Assembly (NCBI GenBank): GCA_017619835.1
Contig: JAFZRN010000025.1
Coordinates: forward strand, 62,001-126,000
Source: Eubacterium sp.
GTDB lineage: Bacteria > Bacillota > Clostridia > Lachnospirales > Lachnospiraceae
DNA: 64,000 nt
Direction of reading: 5' to 3'
Part shown: in pieces, positions 21,021 to 37,282 of the stretch
Layout of the letters: the number at the start of each line of letters is the position of its first letter
Numbering within the stretch: the stretch's first letter is position 1
Made by a program: the position numbers and the translations under genes
Notes under the pieces: model-generated
Told to the model about the DNA's origin: nothing
Database searches by the model: none
What the model saw: the letters and a program-made list of their open reading frames with translations, nothing else

Positions 21021-21024
21021 ATAA

Positions 21025-21279: not shown

Positions 21280-21285
21280 TACTAA

Positions 21286-21855
21286 ATGATAGAAAAAAGA
21301 TATAAAGACATTCATGTAATAATTGATGTTTTACAAGGAAAAGAAGATGAGGAGTTATCTATTTTAGCTAAAAGAATTGTTTCTTTCCTGTGCAAAAAAG
21401 ATTTTGGATTAACTGATCTGGAAATAGAGGTGGACAAGAACGGGAAGAAGCGTATTGTAAATCACCCTAATATTGATTTTAGTATTTCCCATACTTTTGG
21501 GTGTGTTGTTGTTGCGGTTCGTGAGAACGGCAAAATTGGAATTGATACTGAGAAGGTTCATAAAATTAGTGAAAAAGTAATAAATCGATTTTTTAGTGAA
21601 AATGAGAAAAGAAAGATTTCTAATTCGGTCAATTCTGAATTTGTTGAAACGCTTATCTGGACAAAAAAAGAGGCATATATTAAATGTGTCGGCGAAGGGA
21701 TAAGCAAAAAAAACTTAACTACCGATACAGAGATAATTGGAAGAGTAGTTCATGGAGAAGAACACTTGTGCAAAGGAAAGGTGCCGTCTTTTGCGTACTG
21801 GTCAATGCTAGTAGAATCATATATTGTTACAATATGTTTTGAAGACAATGTTTGA
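21286..21855 (+). CDS. Sfp-type 4'-phosphopantetheinyl transferase
   Basis: The 189-residue protein has the core motifs of the Sfp family: DFSISHTFG near residue 64, GIDTE with Asp87 and Glu89 (magnesium ligands), and WTKKEAYIK with Glu129 and Lys133. It would transfer phosphopantetheine from CoA to the carrier-protein serines of this locus, probably all four carrier domains. Slightly shorter than typical Sfp (~225). Directly downstream of carrier protein 3. Having its own transferase makes the locus independent of the fatty-acid AcpS. Confidence 0.92.
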   Translation: MIEKRYKDIHVIIDVLQGKEDEELSILAKRIVSFLCKKDFGLTDLEIEVDKNGKKRIVNHPNIDFSISHTFGCVVVAVRENGKIGIDTEKVHKISEKVINRFFSENEKRKISNSVNSEFVETLIWTKKEAYIKCVGEGISKKNLTTDTEIIGRVVHGEEHLCKGKVPSFAYWSMLVESYIVTICFEDNV

Positions 21856-22260: not shown

Positions 22261-22874
22261 CTGTAAATAAGGCATACGATTGATTATATTATAGATTTTG
22301 ATTCTTTCGTATTCGTTGCAGGAGACAAATAGACATTTTTAAAGTTCAGCGAATAGTTGTATTCTTAGCCATAGGATAATTCATTATTATCGATTATTCT
22401 TCTTTCAGAGATTTTGTCCATAATGTGTGGCTAAATGACTTAAATGACTATTCATGGATATGCCCCCCCTGTGCTGAGTTATACAATCTGATACGCACTT
22501 CGATATATGAGTGTTTTTTTAGCTACTATCTTTTCGGCGTCAGTTACTTCGATTGGATATTTGTGCTTATTAGCGCCATTATGTATGCTCTTTACTATTT
22601 GAGCCGACATCGGGGGGGAGTACTGGTTTCCTGACTAAGTGATTTGGCACAGACATGATATTATCTAGACTTTTCAGTTTTTTAAGGTCGCTGAAATCTA
22701 GCATCTTTTTCACCTTTCTTTGCAGTTTAGCGAAATATATGTGTGCTTGAACTCTCTGCATAAATGTGATGAAAGTGAAGATGGGATAGACATTGACCTG
22801 TAGCGCTATGCTCATCGGCTTTGGGACTGGCATGCTCAGACATGAAACAAAATTTACAGGGGGTAAATAACAAT
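22261..22874. other. Gene-free stretch with no recognisable content
   Basis: About 600 bases carry only short, unconvincing open frames on both strands. There are G and C runs (22459-22465 and 22613-22619) and no hairpin terminator or RNA gene that I can recognise. It may be further mobile-element debris, since it lies between the IS3 remnant and the start of the island. Confidence 0.5.
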
Positions 22875-23783
22875 ATGTTACTAATAACGGGAGCGGCAGG
22901 ATTTATAGGTGGATACTGCATGCAACATTTATCGAAAGAGTATAATATATTGGCTACTGATAGACAGGAACTTCCATGCCCAGTGGGTAGCGGGATTCAG
23001 TTTGTTCGGGGGGATATTGAGGACGGGGAGTTCTTACAGCACCTGTTTGCAAATAATAAAATAGACATCGTCCTGCATCTTGCGGCGGAAAAAAGCCTTG
23101 TCGTATGCGAAAACAATCCGGGTGCATATCGTACTAATGTGCTCGCAACGCTTGAATTGTACAAGCTTTCAAGGAGTAACGGTGCGCATTTTGTGTTTCT
23201 GTCCAGCGATCAGGTGTTTGACGGGAAGACGGGCGATTACAAAGAGGATTCCCTGCCATCACCGATAAATAACTATGGCAAATACAAGGCCGAGGTCGAA
23301 CGCAGGCTGATTGGCCAAGATGGTGTGACAATTTGCAGGACAGCGTTGGTGTTCGGCTACAAAATAAACCCTTTCAGTGTCAATTTTGACAAAAGTGAGG
23401 TAGTAAACCAGAGTGAATTTGTCGACCATGTAGTAGCTAGGCTTTCAGCGGGAAAGACTATTAAGCTATCATTTGACGAGATAATATCGCCGACGTATGT
23501 TGGAGCGTTGTACAGGCAACTCCGCATGGTATTACATAAACAGCCGCTAGGAATACTTCACTGTTGCGGCAATGAGGCTATCAGTAGGTTTGATTTTGGG
23601 CAGAAGATAGCAGACTTCCTTGGACTTAACGTTTCGGGTATCGTAGGTGTCAAAGGCAAAAGCTACCGACCCAAAAATGTATCGCTGAATGTATCCTGTT
23701 CCGAGAGGCTATTAGGCATAAAATATCCGTCGGTTGATGAAATGCTAAAGGAGATGATTGAAGATGAAGTTGATAATGACTGA
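22875..23783 (+). CDS. NAD(P)-dependent sugar-nucleotide epimerase/reductase (RmlD-like)
   Basis: The protein is 302 residues from the ATG at 22875, chosen because of the GGGGGT site and because TGAAGFIGGYC (residues 5-14) is then N-terminal, as in the family. It also has the extended-SDR pair Tyr134/Lys138 (YGKYK), FLSSDQVFDG, and a C-terminal GILHCCGNEAISRFDF resembling dTDP-4-dehydrorhamnose reductases. It would reduce or epimerise a nucleotide-linked sugar. First gene of the island. It overlaps the next small gene by 20 bases. Product unknown; a non-sugar substrate is possible. Confidence 0.85.
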   Translation: MLLITGAAGFIGGYCMQHLSKEYNILATDRQELPCPVGSGIQFVRGDIEDGEFLQHLFANNKIDIVLHLAAEKSLVVCENNPGAYRTNVLATLELYKLSRSNGAHFVFLSSDQVFDGKTGDYKEDSLPSPINNYGKYKAEVERRLIGQDGVTICRTALVFGYKINPFSVNFDKSEVVNQSEFVDHVVARLSAGKTIKLSFDEIISPTYVGALYRQLRMVLHKQPLGILHCCGNEAISRFDFGQKIADFLGLNVSGIVGVKGKSYRPKNVSLNVSCSERLLGIKYPSVDEMLKEMIEDEVDND

Positions 23784-23967
23784 AGGAGATTCCACAAATG
23801 GAAAATTCAGTGTCCAGATTTCTTATATGAACAGGGATTTCGTATGGATACTTGGTCGTGGTATTTTTGATAAAAGTATGTGCCTTGTTGACTATTCGAA
23901 AGCCGCTGAGATTAAGCGGTTTGTCGAAGCTCAGGGAATGATTATAGATGAAGGTGGTGAGCAGTAA
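23764..23967 (+). CDS. Small uncharacterised protein (67-69 aa)
   Basis: A 67-residue product from ATG 23764 (or 69 from a TTG six bases earlier), with GGAG 10 bases upstream. It contains one Trp-rich beta-like segment (NRDFVWILGRGIFDKSM) and a C-terminal helix (SKAAEIKRFVEAQG). It overlaps the reductase end by 20 bases and the thymidylate-kinase-like start by one base (TAATG), so it is translationally coupled and probably real. I do not recognise it. It could be a subunit, a binding protein or, less likely, a precursor peptide for the radical SAM enzymes. Confidence 0.65.
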   Translation: MKLIMTEGDSTNGKFSVQISYMNRDFVWILGRGIFDKSMCLVDYSKAAEIKRFVEAQGMIIDEGGEQ

Positions 23968-24707
23968 TGATTTTGATAGATGATGTCCCGGATTTTTCCC
24001 AAAATACCGTAAACTACCCTAAAAATAAGCCCTGTAGATCGATGGAGCACGAATTGGACGACCTGCCCGGAAAAATGATCGTTTTTGAAGGGATTGACGG
24101 GGCAGGCAAATCCACGCAGATAAAGCTACTAAAGGAGTATATGGACCGGCATAACATTAAGGTGGAAATGAATTCATACAAGCAATCTTCCATAGTGTAT
24201 CACGCTATATTGAAAGGAAAATGGGAGAATTTCGATCCTTATACAAGCACTTTACTCTTTCTGGCAGGCATAACCGATACCCTCGCTCGCAATATCATTC
24301 CGGCATTGCGGGACGGGAAAATAGTACTGATGGATCGATATGTATATACACTGATGGTTAGGGCACGGGCAAGAAATGTCAGAGAGAAGTTCCTACAGGT
24401 GCTGGATTCATTGAGGGACCCAGATTTGATAATTTATATGGACATCGATGAGCAGGATGCCACAAAACGCAAGGGCCTTGTGAGTGAGGAGCAGGTTTCC
24501 TATTGGGAGGCTGGCTGTGACCTTGAGCTGTCTGAGAGCAAGATTGAAAACTGGTCTATCTACCAAAGAATCATTAGGAAGGAATATTTGGAGCTGTTCA
24601 AGGATAAGACGAATTGTGTTCTTATCGATTCCTCGGGAGACAAAGACACGGTTCATGAAAGAATATGCACCGCCATCAGAGGAAGTATAGCAGGACTGTC
24701 TGATTGA
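23967..24707 (+). CDS. Thymidylate-kinase-family protein
   Basis: A 246-residue P-loop kinase: EGIDGAGKST at residues 41-50, DRY at 123-125, and a family-like C-terminal segment (IYMDIDEQDATKRKG). It has ~37 extra residues before the usual TMPK start and a shortened lid. TMPKs phosphorylate dTMP to dTDP; homologues in natural-product clusters handle modified nucleotides. Located in an island with a CTP-synthase-like gene, a modified nucleotide substrate is plausible. ATG overlaps the previous stop by one base. Confidence 0.85.
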   Translation: MILIDDVPDFSQNTVNYPKNKPCRSMEHELDDLPGKMIVFEGIDGAGKSTQIKLLKEYMDRHNIKVEMNSYKQSSIVYHAILKGKWENFDPYTSTLLFLAGITDTLARNIIPALRDGKIVLMDRYVYTLMVRARARNVREKFLQVLDSLRDPDLIIYMDIDEQDATKRKGLVSEEQVSYWEAGCDLELSESKIENWSIYQRIIRKEYLELFKDKTNCVLIDSSGDKDTVHERICTAIRGSIAGLSD

Positions 24708-25154
24708 TAGGCTTTTTATTATACATTCCGTATCTACCTTAAAGAGTAAAGATATTGTTTGTTTAAAAGAGAGCAATTGGTTCAGTACAGATGTTAACAA
24801 CGGAAACTTGCGGTGAAAGGAACAGGAGATGTATCTGAGGAATCATTCAGCATGAGATATATAAAGACAGACTACTACAAATAAGTCGGATATTTTCAGA
24901 ATATCTTTAGGCGTATTTTCTGGAAGGAACTGTAATGAAAAATGCAGCAAGCAGAAATCGACTGAGCGAGTTATGTGCGGTTGTCATTCTGAATCGAATG
25001 GGATATAATGAGCAGGTGTAAAAATCGGTGTGTTTTAAGAATACTTTTCTTTTGCTCTATTAACAAACAAGAGATTTCTCTATAATCGGCCTTGACAGCA
25101 TATTTTGCCCGTAGTAAATGATAATAAGGAGCCGTACAGAGGTACGGGATATAT
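24708..25154 (+). other. Intergenic stretch before the AroE-like gene
   Basis: This 447-base gap contains one short frame with a good ribosome site (24935-25021, listed separately) and no hairpin terminator that I can see. A GTACGG...TACGGG-rich stretch with an AAGGAGC site precedes the start at 25155. The length suggests a separate promoter for the 25155-31682 genes, but no clear -35/-10 pair was found. Confidence 0.5.
24935..25021 (+). CDS. Candidate 28-residue peptide gene
   Basis: An ATG with GGAAGGA eight bases upstream opens a 28-codon frame ending in TAA. The peptide starts MKNAASRNRLSELCAVV and ends NRMGYNEQV, with a single Cys and a hydrophobic middle. It lies in the island that encodes two radical SAM/SPASM enzymes and an exporter, so a RiPP precursor is one possibility. 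There is no family support, and chance is not excluded. Confidence 0.3.
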   Translation: MKNAASRNRLSELCAVVILNRMGYNEQV

Positions 25155-26627
25155 ATGATAAACGATAGAATAGGAATATTGTTCAATGACAATTCGGAGG
25201 AAAAGCATCGGTTCTTGATCGATAACCCGCTTTCAGGTGAGAGCGAAGGACTGACTCTGCATATTTCCACAACCGACAATAGTCTTTGTTGGAAAAAAGT
25301 GTTGGACAGTGGGAATATTTTCGAAATGTTTGCCACTGGAGAAATACAGTATAATTTTTTTATAGGCATCTATGAGCATGGCTGTTGCCAGAAAGTTTAC
25401 GGTCCTTTCAGCATTGAGTTTGTCGATAATATTAATACAATCATATTCGAGGAGCACATTTCCACACATTTTTCTGAATACTGTGGCATTTCATCTCAGA
25501 TTGAAAGCGTTGTCAATGAGGGAAAGGTTATTTGCTTTGTTAACGGTCGGTATACATTGAGCACGCTTTTCAAGGTTGATATAATGGACTGCGTTAAAGC
25601 GGAGCAATATGAAGGCGACTCAGATAATATAAAATGTGATGGAAGGGCTGATGTCCTTATCCTTCGTGCTCTGTCGGATAAATGCTTTGATTTGTGTGGA
25701 AGATACGACGATAACCGTTCTCTCTATGATAATTTGAAGGACAATGAGGTGTTTGAGTGGGGACTAATAGGGAACAGCTCGATAGATAAGTACAGCTTTG
25801 CTCCAGTTATGTGGACCGCGCTATTTAAGTATCTTAGGCTACCGGTAATCTACAAGGTTATTCATACCGACGACATAGCCCTCCTTCAGAAACAATACAA
25901 CGAGGAAATCGTTAAAATGGGGGCCATGGGATTTAATGTTGCAATGCCGTGGAAAAATTGGGCGTTTGCGCAATGTGACTGGACAAGCGTGGCGCTCAAA
26001 CGGAATAAGACAGTGAATACAATCTTCAAAAGACAGCGCGACATCTGCGGATCCAATACCGACGGCATTGGCCTTTTGAGGATAATTAAGCAGAATAGCG
26101 ACATCAGGGGTAAGTGCTTCCTTTTGCTTGGTGCAGGCGGCGTTATTCAGACGTTGCCAGTTCTGCTCAGCATGGAACATGCAGATGTGATTTATATTTA
26201 TGACATAGAGTGCGATAAGGCTGATACGCTAGTGGCAAGGGATAGCAAGACAGCGCACTATTATGGGACTAGTTTGGTTAGGATAACGTCGGATGAAATT
26301 ACGGAAATCGCTCCTGATGTCGAAGTAATCATCAACGGCACTCCATGTGGCATGTATGGCAGGGAGGATGAAATGGCCGTTACCGAAGCCCAGTTAGTTG
26401 AAATGGCCAATTGCAAACTTATTGTGGAATCCATTTATAACCCTTATGAAACGAAGCTGCTTGAGGCAGGCAGACTCCACGGCATAAAAACCGTGTCTGG
26501 TGTCGAGTTACTCGTCTCGCAGGCTATGTTCAGCTTTTCCGATGCATTTGATATTGAACTGAATGCTTCCCATGCCACTGTGATGAAGGATGCCGTTCTC
26601 GAATACTATTTTAAAAACAGGAGGTAG
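25155..26627 (+). CDS. Shikimate-dehydrogenase-like enzyme with unknown N-terminal domain
   Basis: A 490-residue protein. The last ~290 residues follow AroE order: LIGNSSIDKYSFAPVMW (substrate loop near residue 200), GFNVAMPWK with catalytic Lys267, CGSNTDGIGLL with Asp303, a Rossmann LLLGAGGV, then INGTPCGMYG and ESIYNPYETKLLEAG. Lys and Asp of the catalytic pair are kept, so a dehydrogenase is likely, but the substrate serine pair (SxS) is altered. Residues ~1-190 match nothing that I know. Such a fusion points to a shikimate-like or quinate-like substrate tied to another moiety. ATG chosen from in-frame context. Confidence 0.82.
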   Translation: MINDRIGILFNDNSEEKHRFLIDNPLSGESEGLTLHISTTDNSLCWKKVLDSGNIFEMFATGEIQYNFFIGIYEHGCCQKVYGPFSIEFVDNINTIIFEEHISTHFSEYCGISSQIESVVNEGKVICFVNGRYTLSTLFKVDIMDCVKAEQYEGDSDNIKCDGRADVLILRALSDKCFDLCGRYDDNRSLYDNLKDNEVFEWGLIGNSSIDKYSFAPVMWTALFKYLRLPVIYKVIHTDDIALLQKQYNEEIVKMGAMGFNVAMPWKNWAFAQCDWTSVALKRNKTVNTIFKRQRDICGSNTDGIGLLRIIKQNSDIRGKCFLLLGAGGVIQTLPVLLSMEHADVIYIYDIECDKADTLVARDSKTAHYYGTSLVRITSDEITEIAPDVEVIINGTPCGMYGREDEMAVTEAQLVEMANCKLIVESIYNPYETKLLEAGRLHGIKTVSGVELLVSQAMFSFSDAFDIELNASHATVMKDAVLEYYFKNRR

Positions 26628-26639
26628 CATACTATATCG

Positions 26640-27437
26640 ATGGGTAAACTGAATTGCCTGCTACATATAGCAAAACTCAATTACAAGACGAACGCCACTT
26701 ATAAACAGGCTAACTGCTTCGGAATAATTGTCAATTCTTTCTGGCTGATCATCCAGATGTATATACTTGTCGCCTTTATCAAACATGGCATTAGCTCATA
26801 TACCGTTCAGCAGGGCATCGGATATGTCGTTCTCACTGAGGCGTTGCTGACTATAACTGGTCTTAGTGGCAGCTTGGGAGAAATAGACATAGATGACCTG
26901 ATTAAATCAGGAAACATAGTTTTTTACCTTACCAATCCTATTGGCCTTATTGGATACCTTATTGGAATGGAGGCTGGGCGAGTGATGTATTATCTGCTCT
27001 GGCGCTTCCTGCCGCTTTTGCTTATTGGAATGGTTACGCTGAAATGGTATCCTTGTGTTACACCCATGATATTGCTTTTCTTTTTTTATTCGATTATTAT
27101 CGGACTTGTTATCGCCAATGAAATCCAGTTTATTATAGTAATGCTTGCAATAAAAAACAACACGTCGATGGGTGTAGTAGATTTGATAATGGCTATTGAG
27201 CTTTTCTTCTCGGGCGGGCTATTGCCTTTGAATATTTTTCCAGAATGGCTCTATAATATATCACTCTATTTACCGTTTTCTGCGCAGATTTATCTGCCTA
27301 TTTCAATCATCCTCGGTACAGAGAAAAGCATATCGAAGTTGCTTCTCCTAGAGACTTTATGGGCGATAGTACTGTTGCTAATATCACATTTCATTTATGC
27401 CAAGGAAAGGAAAAAAGTCTATGTTCAGGGAGGTTAA
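26640..27437 (+). CDS. ABC-2 type exporter permease subunit 1
   Basis: A 265-residue protein with about six membrane helices and no signal peptide. The pattern (GNIVFYLTNPIGLIGYLIG, GGLLPLNIFPEWLYNISLYLPF) resembles the ABC-2/DUF990 permeases that pair with a second permease and an ATPase. GGAGG lies 15 bases upstream of the ATG, which is long. It overlaps the next permease gene. The three genes to 29134 form one export system, probably for the island product. Confidence 0.82.
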   Translation: MGKLNCLLHIAKLNYKTNATYKQANCFGIIVNSFWLIIQMYILVAFIKHGISSYTVQQGIGYVVLTEALLTITGLSGSLGEIDIDDLIKSGNIVFYLTNPIGLIGYLIGMEAGRVMYYLLWRFLPLLLIGMVTLKWYPCVTPMILLFFFYSIIIGLVIANEIQFIIVMLAIKNNTSMGVVDLIMAIELFFSGGLLPLNIFPEWLYNISLYLPFSAQIYLPISIILGTEKSISKLLLLETLWAIVLLLISHFIYAKERKKVYVQGG

Positions 27438-28218
27438 TCATAAGTTTAGTGTTTGGATCATGTGCTTGATGATAAGCCTTAAATCACAGTTCCAATATAG
27501 GTCGTCCTTCATTTTGAAGTGCTTTGTGATGTTTATTACTTACTTTTGCGAATTCATATCTACTTATTTTTTGATAAGTAAAGTATCGGATATCAACAAA
27601 TGGTTAAAATATGAGATAATGTTAATTTATGGAATGGCTACCTTTGCGTATGCGATGTCTAGGTTGCTACTGTGTGGTATCAATAACATCCCGAAGCAAT
27701 TGAAAAATGGTAAGTTCCTTATAAAACTGATTCGCCCTGAAAGTGAACTTTTCTGTTCGATGATAGAAGAAATACCCGTTGATCGATTAGGACAGATACT
27801 GTTGGGGGTGGTGCTTATAATTTTCTCGTGTGTCAAGAATTTCAGTAGTATCTCTATACTTTGGCTTGTCGTATTCCTTGTCACGGGTACAGTGATATAC
27901 TGCTCGATATTCATCATTACAGCTAGTGTCTCCTTTTGGATAATTAATTCGCGAGAGCTGCTCGGAATCCTCACCCATGGTACGCTTCGGGCTATAGTTT
28001 ACCCGATAACTATCTATAGCCGGATCCTACAGGAAATATTTACATACTTAGTGCCTGTCGCATTTATAAGCTATTACCCTGCCATAGTTATTTTGAATAA
28101 AGAGGGCGACCACACCACCATAAAACTAGTGACATTCCTTGTAGCTGTTCTGATGTGGGGCATAGCAATGATTGTATGGAAGCTGGGAATCAAAAAGTAT
28201 GAAGGAGCGGGGGGGTAA
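27421..28218 (+). CDS. ABC-2 type exporter permease subunit 2
   Basis: A 265-residue protein from the ATG at 27421, chosen because GGAAAAAAG lies just upstream; an earlier in-frame ATG exists at 27397. About six membrane helices, including a basic N-terminus and FISYYPAIVILNKEG near the C-terminus, a hallmark of this permease type. It overlaps subunit 1 by 17 bases and ends one base before the ATPase start. Partner of 26640 and 28220. Confidence 0.82.
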   Translation: MFREVNHKFSVWIMCLMISLKSQFQYRSSFILKCFVMFITYFCEFISTYFLISKVSDINKWLKYEIMLIYGMATFAYAMSRLLLCGINNIPKQLKNGKFLIKLIRPESELFCSMIEEIPVDRLGQILLGVVLIIFSCVKNFSSISILWLVVFLVTGTVIYCSIFIITASVSFWIINSRELLGILTHGTLRAIVYPITIYSRILQEIFTYLVPVAFISYYPAIVILNKEGDHTTIKLVTFLVAVLMWGIAMIVWKLGIKKYEGAGG

Positions 28219-28219
28219 A

Positions 28220-29134
28220 ATGATTAAAATATGCGGATTAACTAAAATATACAATAATAACACAAAAAAAGCGGTAACGGCTATAGAAAACCTTAATCTT
28301 GAGATAATGGACGGCAGTATAGTAGGACTACTTGGACCCAACGGTGCTGGCAAATCTACGTTGATAAAAATGATATTGGGTGTCATGTATCCTACTAAAG
28401 GATTTGTCACAGTTAACGGGAAGAACGCGTTTGATTACCGCAAGCAGCTGATGAAAGACATAGGCATAGTTTTTGGACAGAGAGGTCAGTTGTGGTGGGA
28501 TTTGCCAGCTATGGATACCTACCGCCTTTTGCGTAGAATCTATGGAGTGGACAGAGAAGAATTCGACATATGGCTTGACGAAATTATAGATGAAATGGAC
28601 GCCCGTGAGATTGTGAACAAGCCTGTCAGGTTGCTTAGTCTTGGCCAAAGAATGCGTTGCGAGATAATTGCAGCGTTATGTTTCAAGCCCCGGATAATAG
28701 TCCTTGACGAACCGACCATCGGTTTGGATATTTCGGTAAAAGAAAAAATACGAAATTTTCTAGTCTATCTCAATAGGGAGAAAAATGTGACCATCCTTCT
28801 GACGACACATGATCTTGCTGATGTCGATGCAATCTGCGACAGGATAATTGTGCTCAACTATGGCAAGGTGCTGTACGACGCCTCGTCGCGGGAAATAAAA
28901 GAGAAAAACTCTGGGAAAAATTGTGAGATTGTTTATACTCCTCGCGATGTAGAAAAAGGCGACTTTCCTTTAGAGGTCGAGACCGTCGAAATCAACAGCA
29001 AGAAGATTATTACCTTCAAAGGAGATACATCAGACATTATGAAGGCTATCAGTTGGTGTAGCCAGCACGGTGACATAGAGGATGTCAATATTACAAAGCC
29101 CAAAATAGAAGATATCGTAAAGAGCTTTTATTGA
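28220..29134 (+). CDS. ABC exporter ATPase subunit
   Basis: A 304-residue soluble ATPase starting at the ATG 28220, right after a GGGGGGT ribosome site. Walker A GPNGAGKST lies near residue 40, signature LSLGQRMR near 145, Walker B IIVLDEPTIGLD near 165, switch His TTHDLAD. The LSLGQ signature fits the DUF990-type exporter group. A C-terminal domain of ~80 residues follows. With 26640 and 27421 it forms a complete ABC-2 exporter. Confidence 0.92.
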   Translation: MIKICGLTKIYNNNTKKAVTAIENLNLEIMDGSIVGLLGPNGAGKSTLIKMILGVMYPTKGFVTVNGKNAFDYRKQLMKDIGIVFGQRGQLWWDLPAMDTYRLLRRIYGVDREEFDIWLDEIIDEMDAREIVNKPVRLLSLGQRMRCEIIAALCFKPRIIVLDEPTIGLDISVKEKIRNFLVYLNREKNVTILLTTHDLADVDAICDRIIVLNYGKVLYDASSREIKEKNSGKNCEIVYTPRDVEKGDFPLEVETVEINSKKIITFKGDTSDIMKAISWCSQHGDIEDVNITKPKIEDIVKSFY

Positions 29135-29216
29135 TAGTTGAAAATTCATTGCCGAGGCGGGTTAATCAATATAAACGACTCGCATAGTGAAGCTTAGCCG
29201 AAAGGAATACCCAACC

Positions 29217-30230
29217 ATGATTAATTATATTTTCTGGGAAATAACCCATCGTTGCAACCAGCGCTGCAGAGTCTGCCATTTGTATGGCGAACAGAACCAT
29301 ACACAGCTACATAAGGAGCTATCCTATAAACAGAATATATGCATAATCGACAAACTTTACGATTATTTCGACGGCAAGGTACCGAGGGTCAAAATATCTG
29401 GTGGTGAGCCTTTCATGCGAAGTGATTTCTGTGATATATTGGAGTACTTTGAAAAACTGGATATCCCGTACGGTATTATGAGCAATTTTTCAGTTATAAG
29501 TGACGAGCAGATAGAAAGGTTTGCAACCATGCATCCGCTGTTCCTTAACATATCGTTGGATGGTACGGCGGGAATCCATGACTCTTTGAGAAAGTGCCCA
29601 GGGGCATGCAATAAATCACTCGCTGCCCTTGATAAATATCTTTCTGCTAAGCAAAGCGACGTAAGCATAGAGCTGAACTGCGTTATGCATCCGGAGAACC
29701 TTGAATGCTATAGATTTATTATCGATACTGCGGCCGAGTTCGGTGTGGCGGCAACGTTTCAGCATGTCAATTTCCTTTCCCAAAAGGAAGAAGCCACGCA
29801 GGCTGAATATGACAGCAAGGTTCTCGGCATCAAGGAATTTAAACATTATGTCAACAACAAAAACGTTTTTGATAACCGCAATGATATAGATTGGCTCTAT
29901 GATACGATAAGAGAAATACAGGATTATGCCAAGATTCGGAAGGTAAAGGTAAAAATAAAGCCCGAGATTACTGATAAGCAGGCATTGTACAGGTACTATC
30001 TGGATGAACCGGGGGTCATCCTCAAGCGGTGCCTTGAAGTCGGTAATATGTTTCTAATCCAGCCGGACGGAACCGTCTGTGCATGTTTCGAGTGCTACAG
30101 CATCGGTAATCTGACCCAATCGAATCTTAAAGAAATAATTGAAAATAGCCGTAGCACTGGGTTGATCGAAAAATTGCAGAATGTGGATTTAAATCCTGTC
30201 TGTAAGAGATGCTGCAAGGGGCAGTTCTGA
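29217..30230 (+). CDS. Radical SAM/SPASM enzyme 1
   Basis: A 337-residue protein from the ATG 29217 (AAAGGA upstream; a GTG start 30 bases earlier is possible). The cluster motif is Cys13-X3-Cys17-X2-Cys20 (THRCNQRCRVC), followed by KISGGEPFMRSDF. The C-terminal half has CLEVGNMFLIQPDGTVCACF and ends with NPVCKRCCKGQF, fitting a SPASM or twitch domain with extra iron-sulfur cluster. Such enzymes modify peptides or small molecules by radical chemistry. Located 83 bases after the exporter ATPase. Substrate unknown. Confidence 0.88.
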   Translation: MINYIFWEITHRCNQRCRVCHLYGEQNHTQLHKELSYKQNICIIDKLYDYFDGKVPRVKISGGEPFMRSDFCDILEYFEKLDIPYGIMSNFSVISDEQIERFATMHPLFLNISLDGTAGIHDSLRKCPGACNKSLAALDKYLSAKQSDVSIELNCVMHPENLECYRFIIDTAAEFGVAATFQHVNFLSQKEEATQAEYDSKVLGIKEFKHYVNNKNVFDNRNDIDWLYDTIREIQDYAKIRKVKVKIKPEITDKQALYRYYLDEPGVILKRCLEVGNMFLIQPDGTVCACFECYSIGNLTQSNLKEIIENSRSTGLIEKLQNVDLNPVCKRCCKGQF

Positions 30231-30288
30231 TCGAACTTTCCGCATCGCCTGGAGTTTGAGCGGCAACAAATATTTAGAAAGGGGAAAG

Positions 30289-30321
30289 ATGAATTTTTTC
30301 ATCACAGGAGACTATGAATAA
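30289..30321 (+). other. Tiny leader frame overlapping the radical SAM 2 start
   Basis: A 10-codon frame (MNFFITGDYE) has a strong GAAAGGGGAAAG site and terminates at 30321, past the ATG at 30314 in another frame. The ATG at 30314 itself has AGGAG only 3 bases away. This arrangement could couple translation to the tiny frame. It may also be chance. Confidence 0.3.
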
Positions 30322-31594
30322 TGTCAAGAAAATGTACACATTGAGCGTACCTTGTAAGACACAGTTTATAAAGGATAACAGCGTTATGGATATTTCTGAT
30401 CTTCCAGACAGGCTATGGATATCACCCTCGTGCGTGTGCAGGATATCAAAGGATTCGTTGCTTATTTTTAACGGGCTATACCAAGCCTTTTATACTGATG
30501 GTGATTTCAGCAATTACTTCAAGGATGGCTTCTGTTTTAATAAAAAAGACTTTGAGGCAGGTGAAATAAATCAGCTAATAAAAAAGAAAATCATTGACCT
30601 TACGGAAGATGGCACTCATCAGCCCAAGGTACACTATTATGATAGCTGTATATCTGCATATTATGCAACGTTGGAGATTACCCAGCGCTGTAATGCAAAT
30701 TGCGCGCATTGCTATAATGGTCTTGAGCGTTGCGATAAAGATCCTATGTTGGAGACCATCAAGCAAAGGATTATCAAGTTGAAGAGCATGGGTATTCAGT
30801 ATATTGAGGTCACCGGCGGTGAGCCATTGCTACGTGACGATATCGAGGAAATAATCAGTTTCATTAAGGAAAACGAGCTTAAATACTGTATCGCAACCAA
30901 CGGCAGCTTGATTTCACGGCACAAACATGTGATCCTCGGCGCTGAAAGCGTATCTATCAGCCTTGACGGTGACAGGGATTACCACAACATGATAAGAGGC
31001 TGCGATATCTATGACAAGGTTATTGAAGGACTAGAATTTTTGCAGAATAATAATGTACGAACACTTATCTCTATGACGGTCACAAACGAAAACGAGAAGT
31101 ATATAGACCATGTTGTTGGTATATCTGAAAAATATGGAGCCGAGCTGATTCTTGCCGCAGTAGTACCAGCTGGTAAGGCAGATGCGCTAAGGTACAGTTC
31201 GCATAAGGAGTCGGAATCGGCAGGCAAATCCTCTATGAAGGTATACGGGGATTCACTGAAGCGCCCCAAGGTCGAGGTTAACAAGGACACCTATTTTTTT
31301 GGATGTGATATGGGTAGGAAGGGATTTACCGTATCGATTGTTGGCAACATCCTGCCGTGCCTTTTCATGAGGGAGTTTTCAATAGGTCGGCTTGAGGACA
31401 TGACTATTGAGAAATACAACGATATCGTGGAAAAACTGTGTACTGCTAGAAGGAAAGCGGTAAAGATTTGTGAGGACTGCGACAACACCAAGTGTGGTGG
31501 TCTTTGTATATTTTCAAATTCACAAAGGGCGAGAAGAAAGAAACGATATGACAGGGATGTCGATTTCTGTCGGGATATTCATGAAATCATTTAA
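30314..31594 (+). CDS. Radical SAM/SPASM enzyme 2 with N-terminal extension
   Basis: A 426-residue protein. Residues ~1-110 form an N-terminal region of the sort that often binds peptide substrates in PqqE-like enzymes, though I do not see a sure RRE. The radical SAM motif is Cys126-X3-Cys130-X2-Cys133 (QRCNANCAHC), then EVTGGEPLLRDD. The C-terminus has GCDMGRKGFTVSIVGNILPC and CEDCDNTKCGGLC, a SPASM-type auxiliary cluster set. It is likely to act with the other radical SAM enzyme, 84 bases upstream. A peptide substrate is a hypothesis. Confidence 0.88.
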   Translation: MNNVKKMYTLSVPCKTQFIKDNSVMDISDLPDRLWISPSCVCRISKDSLLIFNGLYQAFYTDGDFSNYFKDGFCFNKKDFEAGEINQLIKKKIIDLTEDGTHQPKVHYYDSCISAYYATLEITQRCNANCAHCYNGLERCDKDPMLETIKQRIIKLKSMGIQYIEVTGGEPLLRDDIEEIISFIKENELKYCIATNGSLISRHKHVILGAESVSISLDGDRDYHNMIRGCDIYDKVIEGLEFLQNNNVRTLISMTVTNENEKYIDHVVGISEKYGAELILAAVVPAGKADALRYSSHKESESAGKSSMKVYGDSLKRPKVEVNKDTYFFGCDMGRKGFTVSIVGNILPCLFMREFSIGRLEDMTIEKYNDIVEKLCTARRKAVKICEDCDNTKCGGLCIFSNSQRARRKKRYDRDVDFCRDIHEII

Positions 31595-31682
31595 ACACAC
31601 ATTCAAATTCATGTTGTACGACGCCTTTTTTGCATATAAGGAGGATATTTCGACAAATGTCCTTCACGCACTAACGGAATAA
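31581..31682 (+). CDS. Candidate 33-residue peptide gene after radical SAM 2
   Basis: An ATG overlapping the end of the radical SAM gene by 14 bases opens a 33-codon frame: MKSFKHTFKFMLYDAFFAY and then KEDISTNVLHALTE. CGGGA lies about 6 bases upstream. It is the last frame before an insertion-sequence remnant. It could be a small partner or precursor peptide. There is no family support, and the position could be accidental. Confidence 0.3.
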   Translation: MKSFKHTFKFMLYDAFFAYKEDISTNVLHALTE

Positions 31683-31810
31683 TTGACTTGAGACTTTTAG
31701 TTTGCATTGATTAGAACATGCGATACTGGCGGTATTAAGGGAGGGGGTCTTAGTGCCCCCTGCCTCACGTTTTGAAATTGTTGCAATTTAGTAAATTAAT
31801 GAGAAGAGTT

Positions 31811-32396
31811 AAAAGCATTCCTGAAATTCAGAAATAATGCAAATTGAATAAAAAGTGATATAGTTTTAAGATTAGATGTTCATCTTGGCGGATGAAAAAG
31901 CATCAAATTAAACCAGAAGTCTTATGTGAATTAAATACATAATGAAAAGATAGAACAAGCCGTAGATACAACATCTGTAGTTGGTATTGATTTATGGAGT
32001 CGGTTACATTATGCCAGAGCATTTGACAAGAGAGGTTGGGAATTAACAAGAAGAGTTTTCTCTTTCAGGAACGATGTTGAAGGGTTTAATACATCAATTT
32101 TCGGGGTTGAAATCCCAAAATCTGAAAATAAAAAGCTTTTATAATGATAGGCTGTGAACTGACAGGACATTACTGTTTTGCTTTAGCAAAATATATGAAG
32201 GATTACAAGCATAAGATAGTGATGGTAAATCCATCTTCAACTAAGAAGAAAAAAGAGTTAAATGATAATGGTCCAAGAAAAAGGATTTGAAGGATCCTAA
32301 GCTCTGTTTTGAATATATATGGAACTCGATGACCGTTTAACAAATCAAGTAAAATCTTGATTTTTGTTAAATATGTATAAAGAAGAATAGAGAGAA
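31811..32396 (+). mobile_element. Degenerate IS110-family element with structured ends
   Basis: The coding remnant (about 31962-32292, frames broken) reads VVGIDLWSRLHYARAFDKRGW, then MIGCELTGHYCFALAKYMKDY and HKIVMVNPSST, in the order of the IS110 DEDD transposase N-terminal half. The second half is deleted. The left end (31811-31876) and right end (32303-32396) recur at 20752-21020. The right end holds a hairpin (32336-32371). IS110-group elements carry a non-coding RNA near one end, so a trace of it may be here. It interrupts the island between radical SAM 2 and the next gene. Bases 31683-31810 hold nothing recognisable. Confidence 0.8.
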
Positions 32397-32399
32397 GTT

Positions 32400-33194
32400 A
32401 TGATTGAATTATGTAAAATCAAAACGGATAACGTATATGCCCGAAAACTGTTGGAGACGAACAAACTGTTTCTTGAATCGATAAAGGATTATATCGAGGC
32501 TGAGATTCTAGTTGGATCGCTTGCGTGGGGCAGAAATAATGCGGTAGGTGCTAATTCTGATATCGATCTTGTAATAGTGTATTCAGCTGAAAAACAGGAT
32601 AGGCTGCTTTCTTCTAAATATCTGAAGGACAGCTTCACGTTAGAGGATGTAAACTATATACTCGGCAATAAAATGGCTGATTATCTTGTTGCAAAGATAA
32701 GTATTAATGGGGTGGAGTTCTCAATAGACTTGATAAAGGAGGAATTTTTTAGTTACATGTGTACCTATGACCTTGTCAGTGTGAGTAGAGGCGTAGATTC
32801 ATGGAAATTTGGAAGATACAAGCAGGACAATACTTACATCAGCAAAAGCTTTTTGGGTAAGACCAATCCAGTAACAAAAATATCCGTTCAGACTTTGTCG
32901 GGCTATAGAATCCAGCTTCCGCTGTTTTTTATCAACAGGGAAACGCAGGACGCTCCCTCGGAGTATTTTTATGGCATGCCGACAATAAAACTTCTGACAT
33001 CTGTCCCTTTATATAACTCGGAGCACTACGACGTTCGATTACTGCTTAACAAGCTGCAGGATAATATTATTTCGAGGATGAGGGCTGAAAGCATGGAGTG
33101 TAAGGATTGTGGAAGCCAATATAATATTTTGAACCTCTTTGTTTTTAGGGATAGGATGGACAGTGATATTCAGCGGATGTTTGATATCTCCTGA
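32400..33194 (+). CDS. Nucleotidyltransferase-fold protein
   Basis: The 264-residue protein has a Pol-beta-type nucleotidyltransferase motif: LVGSLAWGRNNAVGANSDIDLVIVY with metal-ligand candidates Asp54 and Asp56. Later a zinc-like pair (CKDCGSQYNILNLF) occurs near the C-terminus. Enzymes of this fold transfer a nucleotide to small molecules, proteins or RNA, including aminoglycosides; the target here is unknown. The start ATG at 32400 follows the right end of the IS110-type remnant, with AGAGAGAAG as its ribosome site, so the IS end may supply its translation signals. Confidence 0.8.
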   Translation: MIELCKIKTDNVYARKLLETNKLFLESIKDYIEAEILVGSLAWGRNNAVGANSDIDLVIVYSAEKQDRLLSSKYLKDSFTLEDVNYILGNKMADYLVAKISINGVEFSIDLIKEEFFSYMCTYDLVSVSRGVDSWKFGRYKQDNTYISKSFLGKTNPVTKISVQTLSGYRIQLPLFFINRETQDAPSEYFYGMPTIKLLTSVPLYNSEHYDVRLLLNKLQDNIISRMRAESMECKDCGSQYNILNLFVFRDRMDSDIQRMFDIS

Positions 33195-33244
33195 CGTAGT
33201 TGTCTAGAAGGCTACTTAAATGATGGTCGAAAGGCGTATTTATT

Positions 33245-34147
33245 ATGGATTATATGTTCTATATCACAGTTTATAATGTCTCGATACGGATTTGTACCAA
33301 CGAAATTAATGTACGCGAATATTTCAAGTCTAACTTGTTCTCACGTCATATGCTGCCAGTATATTCGTATTCGGAAGATATTTCCAACGGCGTCCCGGAC
33401 GTAGTGCTGACTATAACTAACGGTTGTAACCAGCCTATGATTAACTTCAAGGATGGACAATTTTTTGCAAATTATAAAGATATTTGTAAGGATATACGTC
33501 ATCTGAGTTATCTAGTATTATATGTTATTCAGACTTGCATACAGCGTAAGGGATTATATTACATTCATTCCGCTGCCGTTGAAATAGGGGGATCGTGTGT
33601 TTTATTATTAGGTGACAGCATGTCTGGAAAGACTACTGTCGCACTGGAAATATGTAGGGACTTCGGCGCTCGTATCATCGGCGACGACTCAGTTATAATC
33701 GGTGAAGTAAACAACAAGGCGGTCATACTCGCCGGAAATGACACTATTTTTTGTAATGAACGGTACAGCGAAGCTTTTTCTTATGATGATATGAATAAGA
33801 AATACTATATGACGATTTCGGGTAGCAAAGAAAGTAGTACTGTTAGGATGATAGTGTCTTTAATTCCTTATTGCGAGAACAGGACTACTAAAAATTCGAG
33901 GCAAGGGCTTAGAAAATTGTTGGACCTTATGTCGCTCCATATAGCAGGAATAGGATATTACTACCTGCCGGAACATCTAATATATCCGAATATGGACAAC
34001 AGTGCTTTGGCAAAGGATCGTTTTCTGTTTGCTGCTGGACTTGTCAACTCTGTGGACATGTACGAGCTCTGTGGCGATCGCGAGTATATTATGGATGGGT
34101 GTAAGGATATTTTTTCGAAGTTACAGACCATAGGGTCACAAACATAA
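33245..34147 (+). CDS. HPr kinase/phosphorylase-like P-loop protein
   Basis: A 300-residue protein with YIHSAAVEIGGSCVLLLG, then the P-loop GDSMSGKTT (residues 123-131) and GARIIGDDSVII, as in HprK-related proteins. Relatives encoded beside RiPP and PqqD-type genes are thought to phosphorylate peptides or small molecules. The N-terminal ~110 residues and C-terminal ~120 residues are not distinctive. Fifty bases after the nucleotidyltransferase; CTP-synthase-like gene follows. A kinase role is likely, target unknown. Confidence 0.78.
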   Translation: MDYMFYITVYNVSIRICTNEINVREYFKSNLFSRHMLPVYSYSEDISNGVPDVVLTITNGCNQPMINFKDGQFFANYKDICKDIRHLSYLVLYVIQTCIQRKGLYYIHSAAVEIGGSCVLLLGDSMSGKTTVALEICRDFGARIIGDDSVIIGEVNNKAVILAGNDTIFCNERYSEAFSYDDMNKKYYMTISGSKESSTVRMIVSLIPYCENRTTKNSRQGLRKLLDLMSLHIAGIGYYYLPEHLIYPNMDNSALAKDRFLFAAGLVNSVDMYELCGDREYIMDGCKDIFSKLQTIGSQT

Positions 34148-34220
34148 AATATTTGAGCCGAATGGTGAATGCGCCGACGGCTTTCGGGGCATCTTTTTAT
34201 GAAATGGAGGTATATTATTC

Positions 34221-35774
34221 TTGAAAAGCCTTATAGTGGTATTGGGGGGGGTCACCTCCGGAGTAGGTAAGGGTGTCGTCTGTGCGTCAATCGGCAATTT
34301 ACTGATAGAGAAGGGGATTAAAACTACCGTCATAAAATATGACGGTCTCATGAATTACAGCTTTGAACAGATGAACCCATACCATGTTATACCTGAGGTC
34401 AGATGGAGCGATGAAGAGGTCACCGTATTGGCCGATGGAGGCGTGGTGGATTCCGACCTAGGGGTGTACGAAAGGTTTACTGGGCTTGATCTTTCTACTG
34501 CCAATAATATAGTGAATGGTCAGTGCCTTAAAGAACTGATATCGTATCAAGATGGTAATCGTTGGAAGATAGGAGAAGTCATTTCAGTTTTCCCGCACTT
34601 GATAGAAATATACAAGGGAAAATTATTTGAGGCGATTGCGGATAATGACGTGGCAGTTCTTGAGGTCGGAGGCACTGTCGGGGATTTTGAAAGTGAGTTT
34701 TTTCTTAGAATGGTTAGCGACCTTTCGGCGGAGTTAAATTTATTTGTAGTACAGTTGTCATATCTTGCTCTCATGGATGGTAGCATAGGGACGGAAAAAG
34801 ATGTCATAAATCAGGATGTTATTTTAAAACCCATTAAGCAAAGTTTCCACACGGCCTGCTCTTTTTGCCTGAAGCCTGACGTATTGCTGATTCGTTCGAG
34901 AAAAATCGTTGGCAACGATATAAAGAGCAGGATATCCAAAGCAACCTGTTTGAGTGAAGAGTATATCCTTTTTGATTATGACGTGGAGAGTATATATGAC
35001 GTCCCCGAAATGCTCAGAAAACAGGGATTGCTTGAGTTGATCATGACTCGCTTTAGATTGAAATCAGATGTAGAAGTACGCTCCTCCTTATCAAATTACG
35101 CTAGGGGTATTGTAAAGCTAGCTGAAGCATTGCAATACCGTGTCGCCATCATCGGTGATTCTGAATCATGGGGAAGTTATACTAGCCTAAATGAGGCACT
35201 AGTCTCTCTTGGCGTAAGGTATAGTAGGAACATTTGCTTCGATTGGTTCAAAAGTGTCGAAGAATATGCTGAACTTCTCGAAAATAACGCTTCGTATAAG
35301 GCTTTTATAGTTACTGAAGGAATCGAGAATCCTATGGAAAAAGCTGAGATGCTCAGAAAGATTTTGGAATACGAAAAGCCGGTGATGTGCATTTCCTATG
35401 GTGCCTGTATCCTTGCTAATATCATTGGCTTGTCGACCGAAAGAACGGATAGGCTAGTGATTGGCAAAATCGATACATATTTGAAGGATTCTGCCGTTGG
35501 AACGGTGCGGGACAGACATAGGCGCGATTTTACTATACCAATATGTGAAAACAAGGGGGAAAACATCGAGATTATCGGATGTGACAGTCAGCACAGAGAG
35601 ATACACTTGTTTAGGCCGAAAAAATATCCTTATTGTATAGGCGTTGTTTCACAGCCCGAATATACTTCTCGTCCTAATTCACCTAATCTTTTATTTTCCC
35701 ATCTTCTAAACCTGAATATAGAAGAAGAATTACAGGATATCGCATATGAATCAGAAACATACTCCTCTTGCTGA
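34221..35774 (+). CDS. Divergent CTP-synthase-like protein with disabled glutaminase site
   Basis: A 517-residue PyrG homologue from TTG 34221 (GGAGG 11 bases upstream). The amidoligase half keeps LGGVTSGVGKGV (P-loop), the DSDLGVYERF metal region and EVGGTVGDFES. The region after strand two differs from PyrG: VIKYDGLMNYSFEQMNPYH replaces the usual LDPYIN...MSPxxHGEV. In the glutaminase half the nucleophile elbow reads CISYG, so the catalytic Cys is Ser392, and the catalytic His is Gln478 (SQPEY; Glu480 kept). Glutamine hydrolysis is therefore probably lost. Free ammonia or another amine may be used, or a different substrate than UTP. It overlaps the next gene by 29 bases. Confidence 0.88.
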   Translation: MKSLIVVLGGVTSGVGKGVVCASIGNLLIEKGIKTTVIKYDGLMNYSFEQMNPYHVIPEVRWSDEEVTVLADGGVVDSDLGVYERFTGLDLSTANNIVNGQCLKELISYQDGNRWKIGEVISVFPHLIEIYKGKLFEAIADNDVAVLEVGGTVGDFESEFFLRMVSDLSAELNLFVVQLSYLALMDGSIGTEKDVINQDVILKPIKQSFHTACSFCLKPDVLLIRSRKIVGNDIKSRISKATCLSEEYILFDYDVESIYDVPEMLRKQGLLELIMTRFRLKSDVEVRSSLSNYARGIVKLAEALQYRVAIIGDSESWGSYTSLNEALVSLGVRYSRNICFDWFKSVEEYAELLENNASYKAFIVTEGIENPMEKAEMLRKILEYEKPVMCISYGACILANIIGLSTERTDRLVIGKIDTYLKDSAVGTVRDRHRRDFTIPICENKGENIEIIGCDSQHREIHLFRPKKYPYCIGVVSQPEYTSRPNSPNLLFSHLLNLNIEEELQDIAYESETYSSC

Positions 35775-37185
35775 CGCCCTATTGGCAAATTCGCAGGAGC
35801 AATTCATTCCCTTCGACGTCCCAGGACATAAAAACAGTATAATAGAACTTCAGGATTATTTTGGCGAAAAGGCTGTTTTCCTTGATAAGAATTCGCGCCC
35901 AGGAATTGACTTCATCAATCAGCCCAAAGGAGTGATTAGCGAGGCGGAGGCATTATTTGCCGAAGCTTTCAGGGCTGAGGACAGCTTTTTTATGGTAGGC
36001 GGCGCGACTTCTTGCGTACATGCAATGATTATGAGTGTTTGTTCGCCGGGTGATAAACTCATAATTCCAAGAAATTCTCATGTAAGTTGCATTAACTCAA
36101 CAATCCTATCGGGGATTATTCCTGTTTATGCTGACCCGGGTATAGATGACAGGCTGGGAATTTCTCTTGGCACAAGCGTCGAGTCCTTTGAGAATTGCAT
36201 TAAACGGAATAGGGATGCCAAGGCCATATTTATCATCAATCCAACTTATTATGGTATCTGCCCTGATATCAAAACGATCGTAGAGCTTGCACATTCCTAC
36301 GGAATGTATGTCATTATAGACGAGTCGCATGGCACGCATTTTTATTTCAACGAGAATATGCCAGCCAATGCTATGGACAGTGGGGCCGATCTTTCTGCTG
36401 TAAGTATGCACAAGACGGGAGGAGCTCTGACGCAAGCTGCAGCTCTCTTGTCTAGAGGGACAATACCGTCCTCACATATTCGTAGTATTATATCTTTGTT
36501 GCAGACGACAAGTGCTTCATACCTGCTGATGGCTTCACTTGATATCGCTAGGAAAAACCTTTATTTCAATGGAAGGGAAGCCGTTGGGCGTAGCATGATG
36601 TATGTCTACAATGCAAGGACCGAGATAAACAAGATCGGCGGCTTTTACGCTTTTGATAATGATATTTTAAATGGAAACTCTATATATGATCTTGATCCGA
36701 CTAAACTTAGCATAAATACAGTTGGGATTGGACTAACAGGCAGCGATGTTTACACCATCCTCAACAAACGTTACAAAATCCAGCTTGAGTTCGGGGATAT
36801 CAGGAACATTCTAGCAATAGGATCAGTTGGTGATAAGGAAGAGTATTATCGCAGCTTGGTTTCTGCACTAAGAGAAATCAGCGAAAAATATAAAAACACC
36901 TCCAACACCAGTTTGCACGAATTTGATTACGAGTATTTCTCTCCGATTATAAAAATGTTGCCTCAAATGGCCTTTTATTCGAGAAAAAGGATCATAGGAA
37001 TTTGGGATAGCGTCAATAGCATTAGTGGTGGTTTTGTTATGTGTTATCCACCAGGTATTCCCCTGCTCGCCCCTGGTGAGCTGATCACACGTAGCATTGT
37101 TGAGCATATCATATATGCGCAGGCTGAACAATGCGATATAATAGGCCTTACTCCAGACGGTAATATCTTTATAGTTGACCAATAA
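35746..37185 (+). CDS. Orn/Lys/Arg-decarboxylase-family PLP enzyme
   Basis: The 479-residue fold-type-I PLP protein has the major-domain motifs of the family: FDVPGHK near residue 23, FMVGGATSCVHAMIM near residue 82, VIIDESHGTHFYF, and the Schiff-base lysine Lys223 in SMHKTGGALTQ. It is shorter than inducible lysine or ornithine decarboxylases (~700) and matches the compact SpeA/YaaO-like group. It would decarboxylate a basic amino acid or a derivative. Translation is coupled to the CTP-synthase-like gene by a 29-base overlap. This suggests that its amine product may meet that enzyme, a hypothesis only. Confidence 0.87.
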   Translation: MNQKHTPLADALLANSQEQFIPFDVPGHKNSIIELQDYFGEKAVFLDKNSRPGIDFINQPKGVISEAEALFAEAFRAEDSFFMVGGATSCVHAMIMSVCSPGDKLIIPRNSHVSCINSTILSGIIPVYADPGIDDRLGISLGTSVESFENCIKRNRDAKAIFIINPTYYGICPDIKTIVELAHSYGMYVIIDESHGTHFYFNENMPANAMDSGADLSAVSMHKTGGALTQAAALLSRGTIPSSHIRSIISLLQTTSASYLLMASLDIARKNLYFNGREAVGRSMMYVYNARTEINKIGGFYAFDNDILNGNSIYDLDPTKLSINTVGIGLTGSDVYTILNKRYKIQLEFGDIRNILAIGSVGDKEEYYRSLVSALREISEKYKNTSNTSLHEFDYEYFSPIIKMLPQMAFYSRKRIIGIWDSVNSISGGFVMCYPPGIPLLAPGELITRSIVEHIIYAQAEQCDIIGLTPDGNIFIVDQ

Positions 37186-37282
37186 GCATTTCAGATATTA
37201 GATGCCACGCTGAGGATGGTGATTTTCAACTGGTAATAACCCCAAATTGAGTGGTAAATTTTCCTGGAATCATCTGGATAGA

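Follow-up and report, generated by a model that had tools for sequence, protein, structure and literature searches.

Some nucleoside antibiotic clusters, for example that of blasticidin S, include a radical S-adenosylmethionine (SAM) enzyme, and SynChlorMet cassettes bring SPASM enzymes together with an HprK-like protein. Parts of three reports describe lasso peptides of Firmicutes, including rumen Lachnospiraceae, that are tailored by an HPr-kinase homologue and a nucleotidyltransferase, with a phosphate placed on the C-terminal serine and then, in pseudomycoidin, one or two hexoses (PMC8498205, PMC7533575, PMC4289311). Here we describe an island of 13 genes that resembles each of these systems in part. 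It occupies positions 22875-37185 of a 64,000-nucleotide stretch of Eubacterium sp. DNA (the whole stretch is hereafter referred to as the window), and the 13 genes very probably constitute one unit for biosynthesis and export.

The 13-gene island and its second copy

The island consists of 13 closely spaced, adjacent open reading frames (ORFs), all on the + strand and all intact. A sequence-only reading of this DNA had listed nine gene types here, all of which were present; they amount to 12 proteins, including two radical SAM enzymes and three parts of an ATP-binding cassette (ABC) transporter, and an ORF of 67 amino acids comes in addition. Families were assigned with Pfam and NCBIfam profiles and their gathering or equivalog cutoffs, with support that was uneven between genes. 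The features of the island and its borders are as follows.

22459..22800, + strand: relic of a CPBP/CAAX-type protease gene (tblastn of the protease of the related locus, pieces 22479-22604 and 22705-22800, E 1.9e-12; DNA homology starts at 22459)
22875..23783, + strand: RmlD-like extended short-chain dehydrogenase/reductase (SDR), a relative of NAD(P)-dependent reductases and epimerases (PF04321, 2.7e-40)
23764..23967, + strand: 67-residue protein with no family match, the sole stand-alone small ORF kept in the related locus
23967..24707, + strand: thymidylate-kinase-like (TMPK-like) nucleoside monophosphate kinase with an N-terminal extension of about 34 residues (TIGR00041; P-loop, DRY)
25155..26627, + strand: AroE-like dehydrogenase (residues ~200-470) with a 200-residue N-terminal domain (NVAMPWK, NTDG and GAGG motifs)
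26640..27437, + strand: ABC-2-type permease 1 (weak DrrB-type match, 1.9e-05)
27397..28218, + strand: ABC-2 permease 2 (ABC2_membrane_6, 3.7e-38)
28220..29134, + strand: DrrA-like ABC ATPase (ABC_tran, 8.5e-27; start codon picked by eye within an ORF listed from 28172)
29187..30230, + strand: radical SAM/SPASM enzyme 1, rSAM1 (CxxxCxxC at residue 23)
30314..31594, + strand: radical SAM enzyme 2, rSAM2, with a SPASM-like C-terminus and an N-terminal region of about 115 residues (CxxxCxxC at residue 126)
31852..32390, + strand: insert with IS110-type transposase debris that splits the island into two halves (gap in the DNA alignment with the relative)
32400..33194, + strand: Pol-beta-type nucleotidyltransferase (PF18765, sub-threshold; GSLAWG...SDIDL motif)
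33245..34147, + strand: HPr-kinase-like (HPrK-like) kinase (PF07475, sub-threshold; GDSxSGKTT, GDD)
34221..35774, + strand: CTP-synthase-like (CTPS-like) amidoligase, its glutaminase half without the catalytic residues (CTP_synth_N, 3.1e-53)
35746..37185, + strand: pyridoxal-phosphate decarboxylase of the Orn/Lys/Arg family (PF01276, OKR_DC_1, 1.2e-61)
37186..37221, no strand: downstream limit of detectable homology (the DNA alignment stops at 37221)

Genome contigs were scanned with the CTPS-like protein by means of exact short peptide patterns, which reach close relatives only. The scan returned one relative, contig CALWXR010000001.1 of a metagenome-assembled genome (MAG) of an uncultured Oscillospiraceae bacterium. 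All 13 genes were present on this contig in identical order, encoding proteins that were 79-90% identical to those of the window (90% for permease 1; the ATPase was compared across 304 residues). The DNA of the two copies was 83-86% identical from window position 22459, inside the broken protease gene, to 37221, 36 bp past the decarboxylase gene. Extra DNA in the window copy interrupts this homology twice, at 24740-25085 and at 31851-32391; the latter insert contains two transposase pieces, one of which matched DEDD_Tnp_IS110 below threshold (0.0014, 18.8 vs 29 bits) and the other no family. The protease gene, a relic in the window, is intact in the MAG (Rce1-like Pfam match), where a second protein of nucleotidyltransferase type (Polbeta at 0.058 only), a 23-residue ORF and AgrB lie on its 5′ side. 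No counterpart of this second nucleotidyltransferase turned up in the window genome.

Pairwise dN/dS between the copies was 0.07-0.17 for 13 of the 13 genes (dS 0.48-0.89), and internal stops were absent from both; all 13 genes are under purifying selection between the copies. The catalytic motifs of the SDR, the TMPK-like and AroE-like proteins, both radical SAM enzymes, the nucleotidyltransferase, the HPrK-like protein and the decarboxylase were kept in both. For instance, 19 cysteines of rSAM2 occupy matching positions, and the decarboxylase has HKT and (I/V)DE(S/A)HG in each copy, the IDESHG and YPPGIP of the window reading VDEAHG and YTPGIP in the MAG. The CTPS-like and decarboxylase genes overlap by 29 nt, and the SDR/67-residue and permease/permease gene pairs also overlap, which suggests coupling of expression.

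Because the 13 genes recur in order in another family and are under purifying selection, their association amounts to more than chance proximity. One could still suppose that two or more unrelated gene groups lie side by side here, or that the island is decaying and functionless in this strain, since transposase-bearing foreign DNA splits the block after rSAM2 and genes upstream were lost or broken. However, another family has the same 13 genes in unchanged order and lacks these insertions, and all 13 are open and under purifying selection between the copies. The MAG copy largely refutes the version with unrelated groups, and we consider this explanation as a whole very improbable.

The sequence-only reading would have been refuted by genes that lie scattered in relatives. 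This was not the outcome: they were found together in the one relative, and none of the other sampled genomes matched a marker, the N-terminal domain of the AroE-like protein. In the host genus, 61 genomes were sampled and the 60 apart from the own genome gave no match (30 of these 60 have a completeness of 90% or more and a contamination of 5% or less); among 391 genomes of the host class the own genome alone matched, as did the MAG alone among 380 genomes of its family. The whole AroE-like protein matched 43 of 299 own-family genomes at 1e-20; in the 42 of these that are not the own genome, the match started only at residue 192 and so covered just the ordinary dehydrogenase part. The own genome was the single match to the CTPS-like protein at E 1e-60 among 392 genomes of the order, and to the HPrK-like profile at 1e-15 among 398 genomes of the phylum. 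These searches drew on partly overlapping sets that include some incomplete genomes, and they covered selected genes rather than each of the 13 individually. Taken together, these results fit a rare unit that has probably moved horizontally. The GC content of the block differed between the window (0.41) and the MAG (0.50) and lay near that of the surrounding DNA in each (0.42 and 0.49, respectively), which fits long residence in different hosts.

The CTP-synthase-like enzyme

The CTPS-like protein has in common with PyrG the amidoligase domain and several ATP/Mg residues. It scored below the cutoffs of both NCBIfam PyrG models (233.2 bits for a cutoff of 308, and 209.7 bits for one of 462.75). 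A separate, normal PyrG, 28% identical to it, is encoded elsewhere in the host genome; thus, the CTPS-like protein is not the housekeeping enzyme. It also matched phrog_28378 (3e-50), a phage family with function unassigned, which probably comprises phage CTP synthases, although this is a guess.

To compare residues, we aligned both island copies with E. coli PyrG and the host PyrG, using E. coli numbering. K18, K40, D42, D70, D72, E140, D147, E149 and K189 were retained in both copies; of these, K18, K40, D72 and E140 presumably serve ATP and Mg. The changes were H57 to D, K187 to I, T188 to L, T191 to I, Q192 to K, H193 to Q, K223 to R and D303 to G, and what we take to be the UTP-phosphate loop is altered in part. 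In the glutaminase half of both copies, C379 stands opposite a gap, the catalytic H515 is replaced by Gln and the GGFG loop is gone, while E517, R468 and R470 are kept. Divergence in this half prevents an exact placement of the Cys; by eye, the Ser of CISYGAC stands there. Part of one report describes C379 as critical in E. coli CTP synthase, and ammonium as still used when the glutaminase is blocked (PMC11211670). Because C379 falls at a gap and H515 is Gln, we read the CTPS-like protein as a predicted amidoligase that depends on ATP and can no longer release ammonia from glutamine.

Predicted pathway and competing readings

The remaining enzymes resembled their namesakes to different degrees. 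The SDR passed its Pfam threshold (138.7 vs 27 bits), scored below the RmlD equivalog cutoff (122.5 vs 224.05) and has the GxxGFxG and YxxxK motifs. The TMPK-like protein scored 91.8 bits, above the TIGR00041 dTMP-kinase cutoff of 83.25 (Thymidylate_kin, 1.5e-25), and was the sole island protein to pass a nucleotide-enzyme cutoff. With this protein as the query, no clear second TMPK was seen in the own genome, which is 93% complete (second match 8.7e-4 over 82 residues), so that the island TMPK cannot be called surplus. For the AroE-like protein, E-values were 2e-09 with Shikimate_dh_N and as low as 1.2e-38 with shikimate-dehydrogenase models, of which the best scored 132.7 vs 252 bits and all stayed below equivalog cutoffs; despite these scores, its Lys, Asp and GAGG motifs are retained. 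Its N-terminal region of about 200 residues matched no Pfam or NCBIfam model, and a separate AroE relative of 29% identity is encoded in the own genome.

The nucleotidyltransferase (Polbeta PF18765, 0.0039, 17.8 vs 26.9 bits) and the HPrK-like protein (Hpr_kinase_C PF07475, 1.7e-06, 28.1 vs 33.3 bits) both fell below threshold; the latter has a Walker A motif (GDSxSGKTT) and an Asp pair (GDD) and matched HPrK structures weakly (1.6e-04). In a PDB search of the proteins other than the radical SAM enzymes and ABC parts, the relatives agreed with these assignments, namely CTP synthases, shikimate dehydrogenases, thymidylate kinases, an Orn/Lys/Arg decarboxylase family protein, HPr kinases (weakly) and MAT2B/RmlD; no match was found there for the nucleotidyltransferase. 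The SPASM domain scored above the gathering score of 21.5 bits in rSAM1 (31.2) and below it in rSAM2 (18.6), in which the C-terminal cysteines are conserved. Among the transporter parts, the ATPase matched the drrA NCBIfam model below cutoff (3.3e-55), and permease 1 matched a DrrB-type NCBIfam model (1.9e-05, 24.4 vs 146.9 bits) and no Pfam family at E 1.

From these assignments a pathway can be proposed. The SDR and the AroE-like dehydrogenase would reshape a sugar or ring, and the TMPK-like kinase would phosphorylate a nucleotide-like intermediate. The CTPS-like enzyme would spend ATP on activating a carbonyl oxygen, as PyrG does with O4 of uracil. Because its own glutaminase looks dead, it would take nitrogen from an external donor: either free ammonia or an amine from the decarboxylase encoded by the overlapping gene might displace the phosphate on its substrate. 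The two radical SAM enzymes would carry out C-H or C-C chemistry, the HPrK-like protein and the nucleotidyltransferase may add a phosphate and a nucleotidyl or phospho-sugar group for tailoring or self-protection, and the DrrAB-type ABC-2 exporter would send the product out. On this basis we tentatively favour a nucleotide-like or phosphate-tagged small molecule as the product, a prediction to which we give slightly less than an even chance. That the CTPS-like enzyme uses an amine rather than ammonia is doubtful. A still bolder proposal, which we regard as a long shot, is a new natural-product class in which a glutaminase-free CTPS relative would couple the decarboxylase-derived amine to the carbonyl of a pyrimidine-like group. 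The radical SAM enzymes and the peptide-type kinase and nucleotidyltransferase would then elaborate the resulting N-substituted, cytidine-like moiety or join it to a peptide, and the product would be exported.

Several points weigh against a nucleotide-like or phosphate-tagged product. The AroE-, RmlD-, CTPS- and HPrK-like proteins all scored below the cutoffs for their namesake functions. The altered phosphate loop of the CTPS-like enzyme, with Gly opposite D303, could indicate a substrate other than UTP, or one that is not a nucleotide. The window copy may be partly decayed, with its protease broken, the second nucleotidyltransferase not found and foreign DNA at two places, and it would be crippled if the parts upstream of the MAG protease are needed. 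Only two copies of the island were found, and pairwise dN/dS cannot assign selection to one of their two lineages. The sequence-only reading had proposed an exported, modified pyrimidine nucleotide or nucleoside. A single biosynthesis and export unit of unusual composition is supported; the product may or may not be a pyrimidine nucleotide, with the TMPK-like protein alone passing a nucleotide-enzyme cutoff. Nucleoside antibiotic clusters likewise bring radical SAM and nucleotide-handling enzymes together; to our knowledge, they include no CTPS-like gene.

The RmlD-family SDR, the TMPK above its dTMP-kinase cutoff and the ABC-2 exporter would also suit a nucleotide-sugar or surface-glycan pathway, in which the RmlD-, TMPK- and CTPS-like proteins and the nucleotidyltransferase would make an unusual nucleoside-diphosphate sugar or cyclitol for export through the ABC-2 transporter. 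However, profile scans of the 13 island proteins turned up no glycosyltransferase family, and two radical SAM enzymes with an Orn/Lys/Arg decarboxylase are unlike standard glycan loci as generally known. We consider this pathway improbable.

The kinase and nucleotidyltransferase bear on another type of product, a ribosomally synthesised and post-translationally modified peptide (RiPP). The radical SAM enzymes would crosslink or epimerise a peptide, the HPrK-like protein would phosphorylate it, the nucleotidyltransferase would decorate it, and the membrane protease would cut it before export, the other enzymes supplying an attached group. Consistent with this, rSAM2 resembles the sactipeptide maturases StsB (3.1e-19, residues 87-415) and AlbA (5.2e-17, residues 76-395), far below cutoff, with matches that begin before its radical SAM domain. 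Sactipeptide and SynChlorMet clusters likewise offer two SPASM-type enzymes and an HprK-like protein (weak matches to ScmE, 3.1e-17, ScmF, 1.1e-21, and ScmC, 0.0012), but the island matches lie far below cutoffs, no PqqD family match and no precursor were found in the island, and it has many extra small-molecule enzymes. The MAG copy has the CAAX-type protease and the 23-residue ORF, which is preceded by a good ribosome site and adjoins the second nucleotidyltransferase-like protein. The parts of the reports cited above give the kinase/nucleotidyltransferase pair a lasso-peptide precedent in Firmicutes, and the clusters for paeninodin and pseudomycoidin share with the island an HPr-kinase homologue, a nucleotidyltransferase and an ABC exporter (PMC8498205, PMC7533575, PMC4289311).

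Unlike those lasso clusters, the island has neither the B (transglutaminase-like) nor the C (asparagine-synthetase-like) family among its 13 proteins, a precursor was not found, and radical SAM, CTPS-, TMPK-, AroE-like and decarboxylase genes are added. A scan for small ORFs (15-90 codons with a ribosome-like site) listed 37 in the window and 55 in the MAG, among which the 67-residue ORF was the only conserved stand-alone pair, the other conserved pairs lying inside larger genes. Its product is 84% identical between the copies, evolves slowly (dN/dS 0.081) and matched no family in any profile library tried. The 23-residue ORF of the MAG was not found in the window by a pattern scan, the protease there is a relic, and five small-molecule-type enzymes exceed the needs of a RiPP. 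Of the phosphorylated peptide that the sequence-only reading had offered as its alternative, the precedent for the kinase and nucleotidyltransferase thus holds, whereas no clear precursor-like peptide is conserved between the two loci and one may be encoded elsewhere; we rate a RiPP-type island as unlikely, with appreciable weight nonetheless.

Each gene type of the island is known. As the sequence-only reading had supposed, no described cluster of this composition was found, in literature searches that were narrow, covered little of the open-access literature and left subscription papers and preprints outside their scope. If our favoured assignment to a nucleotide-like or phosphate-tagged small molecule is true, a mobile pathway assembled from nucleotide enzymes put to new use exists in Clostridia, which present cluster-finding rules would probably not class (our judgement, with no program run). 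The glutaminase-dead CTPS relative poses a testable question, namely what is aminated and by which nitrogen donor, and the copy in a second family provides a ready comparison.

Additional scans and neighbouring DNA

An anti-phage defence role was rejected: PADLOC gave matches for 3 of the 10 island proteins submitted (the TMPK-like protein to PDC-M51B, 9e-16, and VakA; both radical SAM enzymes to viperin models, best 2.8e-17), which we read as generic likeness. With PHROGs, the TMPK-like protein matched thymidylate-kinase families and 3 of the 5 proteins submitted matched none. Three scans of viral contigs returned no relative of the CTPS-like or AroE-like protein and one weak radical SAM match (26%, residues 119-255, 3e-5). 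The island DNA had no match in plasmids or phages, nor the CTPS gene DNA in E. coli genomes; 114 plasmid records matched the AroE part of the AroE-like protein, none over 80% of the whole protein.

Consensus promoters were not commoner than in shuffled sequence (40 vs a mean of 44.0, sd 7.2). Terminator-like sites were somewhat commoner (15 vs 9.9, sd 2.9) and did not fall clearly at any gene boundary on which our reading depends, and no Rfam family was found at 18000-42500 of the window. No part of our reading of the island rests on these promoter, terminator or Rfam scans. In the gap between the rSAM2 and nucleotidyltransferase genes, a stem seen by eye before the stretch ends was not listed by the terminator scan. 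A candidate RiPP precursor in this gap was rejected: after a conserved ribosome-like site, the MAG has a frame of 46 codons, and the window frame stops after five codons in an alignment read by hand.

The DNA on either side of the island is lower in GC (0.33 at 5-22 kb and 0.31 at 37.6-42 kb, vs 0.41 for the island), and across the 40 kb of the MAG compared, window DNA beyond 22459-37221 went unmatched. In a protein comparison of the right-hand group (37.6-42 kb) with the MAG, only weak response-regulator and histidine-kinase matches appeared. For these reasons we set the adjoining gene groups outside the island.

On the left, positions 5080-21855 hold a biosynthesis-type cluster with three AMP-binding enzymes, one of which bears a carrier domain, and three BtrH_N-like proteins, of which one passes the Pfam threshold and two fall short of it. 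The cluster also has two ABC transporters, a nucleotidyltransferase of PF14907, a phosphopantetheinyl transferase, a carrier-like ORF and, by eye, an aminoacyl-carrier ligase. On the right, positions 37600-42315 encode a third radical SAM/SPASM protein, a metallo-beta-lactamase fold and a CYTH domain, followed by an Agr-like response regulator and histidine kinase (by eye). The metallo-beta-lactamase-fold gene (38642-39286) has a degraded, incomplete copy 21 kb upstream of it, where 18000-18179 corresponds to 39054-39238; because of this copy, the two low-GC stretches may share an origin. A repeat of 126 nt, 83% identical, occurs at 20920-21045 and 32299-32424, reaching into the starts of the carrier-like ORF and the island nucleotidyltransferase gene; it is perhaps the end of one IS110-type element, an identity inferred by us. 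Beside the MAG island (L025, reverse complement 560-3125, and L026) we observed AgrB, an AgrD-like ORF (by eye) and a weakly matching histidine kinase and response regulator, together with several recombinase, transposase and sortase- or pilin-like ORFs (by eye), neighbours that hint at quorum control and mobility.

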